A DNA stretch of 64,000 nucleotides from Acidobacteriota bacterium (GTDB lineage Bacteria > Acidobacteriota > Terriglobia > Terriglobales > Acidobacteriaceae): the NCBI GenBank assembly GCA_013289685.1, contig JABCZL010000003.1, forward strand, positions 124,001-188,000, read 5' to 3'. The notes beneath the pieces are model-generated. The model ran no database searches, had not been told where the DNA came from, and worked only from the letters and a program-made list of their open reading frames with translations. This document shows, piece after piece, positions 40,893 through 45,329 of this stretch. A program made the position numbers and the translations under genes. Within the stretch, counting starts at the first letter, position 1. Every line of letters begins with the position of its first letter.

Positions 40893-42764
40893 ATGCGGAG
40901 GATAGCGTTCATCATCGCGGTGGGACTTCTGGCAGCCACGGTGGCTGTGTCGGCAATCGCCGCCGACGATGCATCTTCGGCCCCACTCCCGGTTCTACCG
41001 ATTTCCTGCGGGAACGGAATTCCGGGCGGGATGAACTGCATGGTTTCGAAGAAGGACCTCAAAGAAGCACGGAACGCCTTTGCCAAGGGCGTGAAGTTGC
41101 AGGACCAGCGGCGTACGGAAGAGGCGTTCACCCAGTTCGACACTGCCGCGCGACTGGCGCCGCAGAATGTGCAGTTCATGACCGCGCGCGAAGTGGTGAA
41201 AGCACAGCTGGTGTTCGACCACGTGCAGCGCGGAAACATTCTGATGCTGGAAAGCTCACGGGCCCAGGCCGCCGCGGAATTTCGTAAGGCGCTTGATCTC
41301 GATGTAGAGAACCAGTTCGTGCGGGAACGCCTGGCGGAAGCCAGCCTTGAACAGGTACCAGCGCTGCCCCGAGCTTTGCCGGTGCGAATTGCGGATTCCG
41401 GAGAAATCCATCTTGAGCCGAGGGATGGCAGGGCCACATTCCACTACAGCGGCGAGGCTCGCGGACTGTTCGCCGAACTCTCCGACGCATTCGGGGTGAG
41501 CGTGCAGTTTGACGATCCGCCGCCAACCAGGCAGGTGCGGTTCAACGTGGACGACGTGGACTTCTTCACCGCGCTCAAACTCGCGTGCCAGGTCAGCAAA
41601 ACCATGTGGGCAGCCCTTGACGCCCACCAGATGCTGATCGCCGCCGAGAGCTCTGAAAATCACAAGCAGTTCGACCGCATGTCGCTGCGCACTTTCATCT
41701 TGCCGGCGCATTCCTCACCGCAGGAAACGACCGACCTGGTCAACACGATGCGCACCATGTTCGATCTGAAATTCGTCAGTTCGGGACAGGCGTCGGACAC
41801 GGTGGAAGTGCGCGGGCCGCAACCCCTGATCGAGGCCTGCTCCAAGTTAATGGAACAGCTCGGGAATCCGCGGCCGCAGGTCATGCTCGATGTTCGCGTG
41901 TACCAGATCAACCACCAGCTCACGAAGAACATTGGAGTGCACATTCCCAACACTTTCAATGCGTACAACATTCCGGCGGTGGCGCTGGCTGGGCTGGGAG
42001 GGCAGAGTATTTCTCAGCTTATCAACCAACTGATCGCGTCGGGAGGCATCAACCAGGCGGGCAGTACGGCGCTTTCGGGACTATTGGCGCAACTGGGAGG
42101 ACAAGGGAATTCCATCTTCAGCCAGCCGCTGGCCACGTTCGGAGGCGGGCTCACGTTCAGTGGCGTCAGTCTCGACCAGTTTGCCGCCAATCTTTCTGTG
42201 AACGAATCCTGGGTGCGTAGCCTGGAGAACATGACCATCCGCGCCAGCCAGGGCAACGACGCGACGTTTCACTTGGGAGAGAAGTATCCGATTCTGAATG
42301 CCAGCTACGCGCCCATTTACAACTCGTCGGCGATTTCGGCGGTGCTGGGGAATCAGACGTATGTTCCGCCCTTCCCTTCCGTCAGCTATGAAGATCTGGG
42401 GTTGAACCTGAAGGTGAAACCGACGATCCATGGCGATGGCTCAGTCAGCCTGGACCTCGATATGCAGGTGCGCTCGCTCACCGGACAATCGAGCAACGGA
42501 GTTCCTGTGATCTCCAACCGGGAATATAAAGGGAACATTAACCTGAACGATGGCGAACCGGGAGTGGTGGCCGGTGAAGTGTCGCAGACCGATACGCTCT
42601 CCATGAGCGGCATCCCGGGGCTAGGATTTTTGCCGGGCTTGAATCAGGCGATGGTGAACAATACCAAGCAATCGGAGAGCGACGAACTCATGATCGTCAT
42701 TACGCCGCACGTGCTGGCGAATTTCAACCGGACGAGCCCGGAGATATGGTTGAGCGAGAAGTAG
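40893..42764 (+). CDS. Secretin-domain outer-membrane protein with TPR region
   Basis: A GspD/PilQ-like secretin. It has a signal peptide (FIIAVGLLAATVAVSA), a TPR-like helical part (about 50-145), an STN-type N-domain (VSVQFDDPPPTRQVRFNVDDV), an N1-type region (FDLKFVSS...SDTVEVRG) and the C-terminal secretin barrel (SISNREYKGNINLNDGEP-like VPVISNREYKG and ELMIVITPHVL). The spacer in the centre (about 350-430) is Gly/Ser/Gln/Ala-rich. No other secretion or pilus gene is near. It is likely an outer-membrane channel for a distant apparatus. Confidence 0.9.
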   Translation: MRRIAFIIAVGLLAATVAVSAIAADDASSAPLPVLPISCGNGIPGGMNCMVSKKDLKEARNAFAKGVKLQDQRRTEEAFTQFDTAARLAPQNVQFMTAREVVKAQLVFDHVQRGNILMLESSRAQAAAEFRKALDLDVENQFVRERLAEASLEQVPALPRALPVRIADSGEIHLEPRDGRATFHYSGEARGLFAELSDAFGVSVQFDDPPPTRQVRFNVDDVDFFTALKLACQVSKTMWAALDAHQMLIAAESSENHKQFDRMSLRTFILPAHSSPQETTDLVNTMRTMFDLKFVSSGQASDTVEVRGPQPLIEACSKLMEQLGNPRPQVMLDVRVYQINHQLTKNIGVHIPNTFNAYNIPAVALAGLGGQSISQLINQLIASGGINQAGSTALSGLLAQLGGQGNSIFSQPLATFGGGLTFSGVSLDQFAANLSVNESWVRSLENMTIRASQGNDATFHLGEKYPILNASYAPIYNSSAISAVLGNQTYVPPFPSVSYEDLGLNLKVKPTIHGDGSVSLDLDMQVRSLTGQSSNGVPVISNREYKGNINLNDGEPGVVAGEVSQTDTLSMSGIPGLGFLPGLNQAMVNNTKQSESDELMIVITPHVLANFNRTSPEIWLSEK

Positions 42765-42774
42765 GGGAAAGCGA

Positions 42775-42792
42775 ACGCCGGACTTCCGGCGT
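42775..42792 (+). terminator. Possible hairpin terminator after the secretin gene
   Basis: ACGCCGG-ACTT-CCGGCGT is a perfect 7-base stem eleven bases after the stop. No T-run follows, so it may instead belong to the CGGACCTCGG repeat family that begins next to it. Confidence 0.4.
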
Positions 42793-42970
42793 CGGACCTC
42801 GGTGCTCGGGCCTCGGAACCGTAAGCGCTAACTAAAGGGATCATTCCGGTTTGCCCGTGACCCGCCGACGATCCAGAAGTGCGGCTTCCCAGAAGAGGAC
42901 TTCTGGTCCCGAATCGCTTTCTGAGTACCGCAGTATAGGGCCACTCGTAGCGCCGGCACTGCGATTTATA

Positions 42971-42986
42971 TGTTGCGCACGCAACA
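42971..42986. promoter_or_regulatory. Operator palindrome 1 before the nitroreductase operon
   Basis: TGTTGCG-CA-CGCAACA is a perfect inverted repeat with 7-base arms. MarR-type regulators bind such sites; the marR gene is the second gene of the operon. Confidence 0.75.
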
Positions 42987-42989
42987 CTT

Positions 42990-43011
42990 CTATGTTGTAA
43001 TAGCAACATAG
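42990..43011. promoter_or_regulatory. Operator palindrome 2 before the nitroreductase operon
   Basis: CTATGTTG-TAATAG-CAACATAG is a perfect inverted repeat with 8-base arms. It ends beside the AGGAGG ribosome site and overlaps the likely -10 (TGTAAT). Binding here would block transcription of both genes, giving autoregulation. Confidence 0.78.
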
Positions 43012-43020
43012 GAGGCAGTC

Positions 43021-43731
43021 ATGAGCGAAATTCTGGAAGCGCTCTTCCATAGGCGAGCAGTGAAGGCCTTTGAGCCGGTCGAAATCCCACCAGTATTGCG
43101 TGAACAAATCCTCGATGCAGCCCGCCATGCCCCCTCGAGTTTCAATTCACAACCCTACCGGTTCTTTTGGGTGGAATCGTCGCCTAGAAAGGCAACCGCG
43201 GCAAAACTCTGCATGGGACAGATGCCTGCGGCAACGGCGTCGGCGCTGGTGGTTGCGGTGGCCGACATCGGGTCGCTGACAGCGACCTCACAAGCCCAGT
43301 TGGAGTGGATGCGCAGGAGCGGCTTCAGCCACGCCAAAGTCCGAGACTACGAGCGGACGGCGAAGATCGGCCGGATCCTGTTCATGCCAGGACCGTTCGG
43401 CATTTTTGGCGCGATCAAGTGGGCGATTTTTCGACTGGTGAATTTGTGCAAGACGATGGGGATGCCACCAGTGTTTCGCCAGGACTTGTTAAAGTGGGCG
43501 ACGAAGAGTACATCGTTGGCCTGTGAGAATCTGATGATTGCCGCCGAAGCACTGGGACTCAACACGTGCCCCATGGAAGGATTCGATGGCCGCAGACTCT
43601 CCAGATTTCTCGGGCTGTCAACCCGGTATCATGAAATTGTGATGGTGATTGCCATCGGGAAGAAATCGCCCGCTTATGCGGAATCGCCTCAGTGGCGGCG
43701 ACCTCTCGATGCCACGGTAACCGTTCTATGA
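43021..43731 (+). CDS. Nitroreductase family protein (FMN)
   Basis: A flavin oxidoreductase of the nitroreductase family, acting on quinones or nitro-aromatics, in the cytoplasm. It shows HRRAVKAFEP near the start (FMN phosphate contact), ARHAPSSFNSQPYRFFWV, and the C-terminal LMIAAEALGLNTCPMEGFD, GLSTRYHEIVMVIAIGKK. Length of 236 is usual. Its stop overlaps the marR start. The product may detoxify the inducer that releases the MarR protein from the two operators. Confidence 0.92.
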   Translation: MSEILEALFHRRAVKAFEPVEIPPVLREQILDAARHAPSSFNSQPYRFFWVESSPRKATAAKLCMGQMPAATASALVVAVADIGSLTATSQAQLEWMRRSGFSHAKVRDYERTAKIGRILFMPGPFGIFGAIKWAIFRLVNLCKTMGMPPVFRQDLLKWATKSTSLACENLMIAAEALGLNTCPMEGFDGRRLSRFLGLSTRYHEIVMVIAIGKKSPAYAESPQWRRPLDATVTVL

Positions 43732-44183
43732 TCATGGGTCCAAACATGGATGTTCCAAAGAAGGATATTCCTCAAGGCATTCTGAGGGACTCAGTACTTG
43801 CGCATGTTGCTGCAGCCTATTTTTCCGTCGGGAAGAGACTTGAAAGAAAAACTCGGTGCTCTGCGACTCGTGGCTTCATCCTGTCCACACTCCGGGGCGG
43901 TGCCGCGCTCAATCAGAATCAGATCGCCATACTTCTCGGTTTCGACCGGACTGTCGTGCACCGAGCCATCAAGACAATGGTCCAGGAAGGGCTTGTCTCG
44001 GAGAGAAAAGCAAAATCGGGCAGAGCAATTCACGTTAGGTTGACGCCAAAAGGGTACAAATACAGGAAACGCCTGATCCATGTGAGGATCGCCGCGGACG
44101 ATAAACTCCGAAAAGAACTGACTCCGGAAGAACGCTCAACACTTCTTCGACTGTTGAAGTTGATTGCCGAATTAGAGTTCTAA
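43728..44183 (+). CDS. MarR-type transcription regulator
   Basis: A 151-residue winged-helix regulator. The recognition helix region is NQNQIAILLGFDRTVVHRAIKTMVQEGLV, followed by the wing VSERKAKSGRAIHVRLTPKGYKY. The start ATG at 43728 overlaps the nitroreductase stop as ATGA. Cys46 (RKTRCSATRG) could be a redox switch. It very likely represses its own operon by binding the two palindromes at 42971-43011. Confidence 0.88.
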   Translation: MIMGPNMDVPKKDIPQGILRDSVLAHVAAAYFSVGKRLERKTRCSATRGFILSTLRGGAALNQNQIAILLGFDRTVVHRAIKTMVQEGLVSERKAKSGRAIHVRLTPKGYKYRKRLIHVRIAADDKLRKELTPEERSTLLRLLKLIAELEF

Positions 44184-44307: not shown

Positions 44308-45261
44308 CTACTTTCCCTCCTTCGCGGCGAAGTCGACCAGGCTCTTGTACACATCGGACATGCGCGCATCGAAGCTGCCGACTTTGCGTCCGTTGATGTA
44401 GAGCGTGGGAGTGCCTGTCACGTCAACTGACTTGCCAAGCGCAATCGAGGCATCGACGTGAGCCTTGGTCTCAGGCTTGACGGCGCAGGCGGCGATCTCG
44501 GCGCCTTTTACACCCGCGCCATCGGCAAGGGCAGTCAGCTTCTCGTCGGCGTTTTCTGCGGTAATGTCGGACTGGGTATCGTAGGTCTTGGAGACGAACT
44601 TCCAGAAGGCATCGGTGGAAGCACGGCCGACGCAGTCGGCATAGGCCGCGCCTTTCGCGGCCCAGTTGTGCATCTCCAGGGGAAAGTTCTGGAATACGAA
44701 ACGGGCGTTGGGTTCCGCGGTCACGAGCGCTTCGATGGTGGGCTGCGCCGCTTTGCACGCGGGACACTGCAGGTCGCCGAATTCGACGATGGTGACGGGG
44801 GCGTCCTTGGGTCCGCGCTCGGGGCCGGTGATGCCTTTCTCCAGCAGCTTTTTCGCGGGGTCGAAGGGCTTGGCGCCGAACGGAATAATTTCGCCGGCCA
44901 TGGCATGCTGGCCATCCGGAGCGACGTAGAAGTGAGTCAACTGTTGCCCCTGCGGGTTGGCAAGAACAACGGTGACCTCGGCCAGTTGCGGGATTGGCGA
45001 AGGCTTGATGCTGACGATTTTCCAGGTCAGGTCCGCCTCGTAGCCAAACTGCTGATGCAGAAAGGAATCAACCGTAGCTTCCGTGGGCAGACCACCCGTC
45101 GCGTCCGCGCTCGGCTCAGACTTGGCTGGTACTGGCTTGGCTGCTGCCGGCTTGGTCGCGGTCTTCGCTGTGGTCTGGGTTGTGGTCTGAGCTGGAATCT
45201 GGGCCGCGGCCAGGCTGGCGGCCAGCAGAAGAATACCGATCGAGTTCACAAACCTGCGCAT
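44308..45261 (-). CDS. DsbA/BdbD-type thiol oxidoreductase, secreted
   Basis: A periplasmic thioredoxin-fold disulphide protein. A signal peptide is followed by a Thr/Lys/Pro/Ala-rich linker (TTQTTAKTATKPAAAKP), then the catalytic domain with CPAC in FGDLQCPACKAAQPT and the cis-Pro loop in VTGTPTLYINGRKV. The start at 45261 has AAAGGAA upstream. No DsbB or VKOR partner is beside it. The linker suggests the domain is held away from the membrane. Confidence 0.9.
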   Translation of the reverse strand: MRRFVNSIGILLLAASLAAAQIPAQTTTQTTAKTATKPAAAKPVPAKSEPSADATGGLPTEATVDSFLHQQFGYEADLTWKIVSIKPSPIPQLAEVTVVLANPQGQQLTHFYVAPDGQHAMAGEIIPFGAKPFDPAKKLLEKGITGPERGPKDAPVTIVEFGDLQCPACKAAQPTIEALVTAEPNARFVFQNFPLEMHNWAAKGAAYADCVGRASTDAFWKFVSKTYDTQSDITAENADEKLTALADGAGVKGAEIAACAVKPETKAHVDASIALGKSVDVTGTPTLYINGRKVGSFDARMSDVYKSLVDFAAKEGK

Positions 45262-45329
45262 GGGTTCCTTTCGCATTCGGTTCTGGAGCGATGGCAAAGC
45301 GATGTATCAGAATACTTCAAATTGGAAAT

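Follow-up and report, generated by a model that had tools for sequence, protein, structure and literature searches.

Two adjacent inverted repeats upstream of a nitroreductase-marR operon as putative operators of a self-repressing circuit in Acidobacteriota

Two neighbouring inverted repeats lie directly ahead of a nitroreductase-family gene and a MarR-fold regulator gene in the window, the 64,000-nucleotide stretch of Acidobacteriota DNA that was analysed. We put a probability of about 85% on the reading that the two genes form a self-repressing operon, in which the MarR-fold autorepressor would act on both sites over its own promoter. A compact autoregulated circuit had been proposed for this region in an initial annotation, and the comparison with related genomes supports that proposal through the conservation upstream of the operon, the co-occurrence of the sites with marR, and a MarR fold whose recognition helix contains an invariant stretch. 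Repression by a MarR protein at its own promoter is a familiar principle; this operon provides a testable operator and regulator-target pair in Acidobacteriota. No paper on this nitroreductase-marR operon was found in the open-access literature among the matches listed. The features are as follows, in window coordinates.

40893-42764, flanking gene before the operon, a secretin-domain protein with a TPR match.
42971..42986, no strand, putative operator site 1, TGTTGCG-CA-CGCAACA (letters read and checked by script; half-site pattern; alignment).
42973..42978, + strand, putative -35, TTGCGC, inside site 1 and weak, with 3/6 matches to TTGACA (inferred from the letters and the offset peak in 30 loci).
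42990..43011, no strand, putative operator site 2, CTATGTTG-TAATAG-CAACATAG (letters read and checked by script; pattern; alignment).
42993..43001, + strand, putative extended -10, TG-T-TGTAAT, inside site 2 and 17 bp after the -35 (inferred from the offset scan).
43010..43015, + strand, ribosome site AGGAGG, sharing two bases with the end of site 2 (sequence; purine-rich run in the alignment).
43021..43731, + strand, nitroreductase-family gene, 236 aa (PF00881, E 5.3e-28; translation).
43728..44183, + strand, MarR-fold regulator gene, 151 aa, its ATG overlapping the nitroreductase stop, with a single invariant cysteine, Cys44 (profiles, alignment, model).
44308-45267, opposite strand to the operon, flanking gene after it, a DsbA/thioredoxin-like protein.

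The gene order is sites 1 and 2, then nitroreductase, then the MarR-fold gene, with the two genes coupled by an ATGA overlap as had been claimed. A four-base overlap is found at 28 of the 30 junctions examined (26 ATGA, 2 GTGA); the junctions of L041 and L042 differ. The nitroreductase protein scores 98.7 bits against PF00881, above the curated cut-off of 23.5. Assignment to NfsB or another named nitroreductase equivalog was rejected, as the best NCBIfam match, PRK11053, reaches 67.1 bits against a cut-off of 227.

Both palindromes are present at 42971-43011 by reading of the letters and by script. They had been described as perfect and four bases apart. The arms are indeed perfect (7+7 in site 1, 8+8 in site 2), but the CA centre of site 1 and the TAATAG centre of site 2 are not self-complementary, and the spacer is three bases (CTT, 42987-42989) rather than four. 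The TGTTG/CAACA noted in both takes the same form in each, TGTTG-N6-CAACA, with 22 bp from centre to centre. This pattern occurs at two places only in the whole window, which are sites 1 and 2, while 100 dinucleotide shuffles of the window held a mean of 0.05 and none of the 100 held two. Single palindromes of such size were ruled out as unusual in themselves, their counts in the window being about those of chance: 22 with arms of at least 8 and a spacer of at most 6 (each nested one counted separately), where simulation gave a mean of 12.0, and 17 with arms of at least 7 and a spacer of at most 2 against 18.1. An adjoining pair of both kinds occurs once in the window and in 1 of 30 simulated windows. 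What stands out is the repeated TGTTG-N6-CAACA half-site and its conservation, not the palindromes singly.

The 6.85 Mb source genome holds the exact pattern at seven places, sites 1 and 2 included, against 13 for the reversed control, so single occurrences elsewhere are at chance level. Three of the five other places are covered by long open frames (618-844 codons), one (L002) lies within shorter overlapping frames, and one (L004) between two frames. With up to two mismatches allowed, the same genome holds 109 sites against 127 for the reversed control, and a wider regulon was rejected because such sites are not commoner than the control. No further exact copy was found in the rest of the 30 relatives' loci, which amounts to 168,698 bases.

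The nitroreductase was found at 33 loci by a pattern-based scan. Footprint counts were made on 31 rows, the window and L020-L049, leaving out L009-L019, whose contigs match rows of that scan in length and are probably the same assemblies, and one changed base was allowed per arm when scoring the two sites. Both sites are found in 30 of the 31 rows; the remaining one, L027, is cut by its contig and has only 27 bases of upstream sequence, which contain site 2. The exact pattern is kept at both sites in 28 of the 30, and in L032 and L037 a single base of site 2 is changed. The centre spacing is 22 bp in 28 rows and 23 bp in two (L038, L040). L031 has a third TGTTG-N6-CAACA another 22 bp upstream, giving three sites from 73 to 29 bases before the nitroreductase start. 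Edaphobacter lichenicola (L035) is among the relatives that carry the operon with its two sites.

In the 30 aligned loci, ATGTTG and CAACA of site 1 are invariant, and the arm positions of site 2 are kept in 29 or 30, together with a conserved asymmetric core. The arm positions shared by the sites carry 1.79-2.0 bits, while most flanking positions carry 0.0-0.6. The exceptions are a T before site 2 (28/30), the base after each CAACA, and a purine-rich run after site 2 (0.7-1.43 bits), which is the ribosome site. The two sites are the most conserved DNA upstream of the operon in relatives whose loci show no match to four neighbouring genes of the window. This is not mere recency, since the aligned nitroreductases are 60-94% and the regulators 55-89% identical to those of the window.

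A marR homologue (E <=1e-5) follows the nitroreductase in 29 of the 33 loci. The four without one are L036, which ends inside the nitroreductase; L050 and L051, whose nitroreductases are remote homologues (35% and 29% identical) and whose 110 upstream bases hold no TGTTG-N6-CAACA site; and L049. L052 starts inside the nitroreductase. At L049:2930-3610 a nitroreductase homologue (54%) has two in-frame stops and no marR match nearby, and both palindromes are kept upstream, the core of site 2 being changed and G-rich. This is a decaying copy or an assembly error. That both sites persist there, beside a broken nitroreductase and no detected marR, counts against the self-repressing operon.

An overlap of the sites with the probable -10 and with the ribosome site had also been described, and this agrees with the alignment: the best -10 candidate lies inside site 2, which also overlaps AGGAGG by its two last bases. 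Matches to TATAAT and TTGACA were scored at 50 offsets in the 30 loci (maximum 12), and the peak, 8.1, is TTGCNN-17-TGTAAT, with the next offset at 6.33. The -10 candidate averages 4.63/6 to TATAAT and has a TG one base ahead in all 30 loci. Because the arms are invariant, the palindrome itself accounts for some of this peak. It does not account for the conservation of the site 2 core, whose four central positions average 1.48 bits, against 0.53 in site 1. As this asymmetric core fits an extended -10 at 17 bp from the TTG of site 1, the operators probably enclose the promoter, and transcription would then start near 43007-43009. Against this, a consensus promoter scan of 42765-43100 reported none; its rule requires A as the second base of the -10 element, where the candidate has G.

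The extra asymmetric constraint in the centre of site 2 would also suit two other arrangements, in which the MarR protein activates the operon or site 1 alone is the operator and site 2 is mainly promoter. We consider these unlikely: the arms of both sites are invariant to about the same degree, in site 2 beyond what a promoter needs, and a dimer over the -10 generally occupies the position of a repressor.

The palindromes might instead act in RNA, as hairpins that block access to the ribosome site or cause transcriptional attenuation. The segment 42971-43040 folds with a z of -3.46, matched by 1 of 200 shuffles, into a stem that includes the ribosome site, and there is a terminator-like match on site 1; 42990-43040 gives a z of -1.93, with 7 of 200 shuffles as good. 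However, perfect palindromes fold as RNA by construction, and hairpins do not need the fixed two-site spacing of 22-23 bp. Compensatory changes are hardly seen, because the arm columns are invariant, and the outer pairs beside the arms often break (in site 2, the pair -3/18 is kept by 18 of 30 loci). A promoter at the proposed place would moreover give a message that lacks both left arms. These points make the RNA explanation very unlikely and favour DNA operators.

Across genomes, the presence of the site pair mostly goes with that of marR. In a set of 150 related genomes, marR (E <=1e-10) is found in 12, the exact site pair in 10 and both in 9, with a Fisher p of 2.6e-11 when the genomes are treated as independent; as they are related, this value overstates their independence. 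The reversed control pair pattern occurs in 1 of the 150 (G120). The genome with the pair and no marR, G003, has a contig that ends inside the nitroreductase (locus L074). Of those with marR and no exact pair, G042 and G043 have contigs that start 27 bases ahead of the nitroreductase or within it, and G104 (the genome of L037) has one changed base. In a sample of 396 genomes of the phylum, marR (E <=1e-25) is found in three, the pair in four and both in three. The extra match, in the unrelated genome G150, is one nested inverted repeat (L071:1501-1538); it was counted as a pattern match and rejected as a member, its 3 kb holding no nitroreductase or marR match at E <=1. Sequence cannot by itself tell other TGTTG-like sites apart, but binding by a regulator other than the operon's own is very unlikely, as the exact pair tracks the marR gene and the lack of any genome-wide excess (109 sites against 127) is what a local regulator predicts. 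Four neighbouring genes of the window, including the secretin-domain and DsbA/thioredoxin-like genes, have no match in the relatives' loci, which reach at most about 3 kb each way; the operators seem to move together with the operon.

The regulator of the window scores 22.1 bits against PF01047 (cut-off 24.6) and 24.8 bits against PF12802 (cut-off 27). It thus falls below the Pfam cut-offs for MarR and MarR_2, which weighs against the main reading, and is above the cut-off of the HTH_27 profile. Its homologues match MarR_2 at E <=0.001 in 30 of 30 cases and MarR in 20. The AlphaFold model (pLDDT 85.2) has a winged helix-turn-helix with flanking dimerisation helices, in the MarR order of helices and strands. 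The first PDB structures matched by the model are MftR, Tm0710, MepR and MexR, and almost all of the 50 matches listed are MarR-family by title or by name. MexR (1lnw) matches with a query TM-score of 0.74 and an rmsd of 2.1 at about 20% identity. Identity as the bilirubin regulator BilQ was rejected (NCBIfam 40.1 bits against a cut-off of 125).

MarR-family proteins bind as a dimer to a palindrome of 16-20 bp, and sites in this size range are conserved here beside the regulator gene. Residues D73-R79 of the recognition helix are invariant over 30 aligned regulators, which matches the invariant operator arms. Cys44 is the only cysteine column common to all 30, and in the model it lies between helices 23-42 and 46-54. 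It is a candidate for sensing electrophiles. A thiol sensor of the YodB/QsrR type, with Cys5 or Cys6 near the N-terminus, was rejected, as the only shared cysteine is Cys44.

We infer that two dimers of the second-gene protein would sit on the two TGTTG-N6-CAACA sites, side by side and roughly on one face of the DNA, since the centres are 22 bp, or about two helical turns, apart. With the -35 in site 1 and the extended -10 and likely transcription start in site 2, bound repressor would exclude RNA polymerase. Release of the repressor would come from a small ligand or an electrophile, which may be one of the nitroreductase's substrates; the nitroreductase would clear this inducer and repression would return. 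The system would limit itself because the repressor is encoded in the same message. On this mechanism the operon would be a natural sensor cassette for whichever compound the nitroreductase acts on, and the embedded promoter offers a guess at the -10 and -35 elements of these bacteria.

The two-site layout resembles the control region of marRAB in Escherichia coli, where two MarR sites with a TTG-N6-CAA frame cover the promoter, lie close to the ribosome site and serve autoregulation. The E. coli system differs in its target genes, and its protein resembles the present regulator in fold, at 22-23% identity. MexR of Pseudomonas aeruginosa resembles the regulator by fold only and controls an efflux operon. 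PecS of Vibrio vulnificus, another MarR-family protein, binds two palindromic sites as two dimers (PMC6391409); there the sites are 57 bp apart in a divergent intergenic region and an efflux gene is controlled. MhqR, YodB and QsrR of Bacillus subtilis and Staphylococcus aureus are repressors of the MarR type or MarR/DUF24 type whose regulons include nitroreductase genes (PMC6798810), and the comparison with the present operon is one of analogy. The same paper describes a quinone response that is thiol-based in QsrR (Cys5) and YodB (Cys6) and independent of thiols in MhqR, whereas the only conserved cysteine here is Cys44. In that account MhqR has one 9-9 bp inverted repeat of another sequence over its start, against two sites here, and the three regulators differ further in having regulons of several operons.

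A broader possibility, which we hold only tentatively, is that Acidobacteriota have a lineage of one-operon MarR repressors that sense electrophiles through the invariant Cys44, which heads the second core helix and is placed unlike the cysteines of QsrR or YodB; the operator would also be the promoter, and messages would be nearly leaderless in some species. In L030, L041 and L042, translation most plausibly starts at an ATG in the right arm of site 2 (CAACATG), which suggests that their messages are almost leaderless and begin their coding within the operator arm; in the other rows with an ATG in this arm, another start comes after it.
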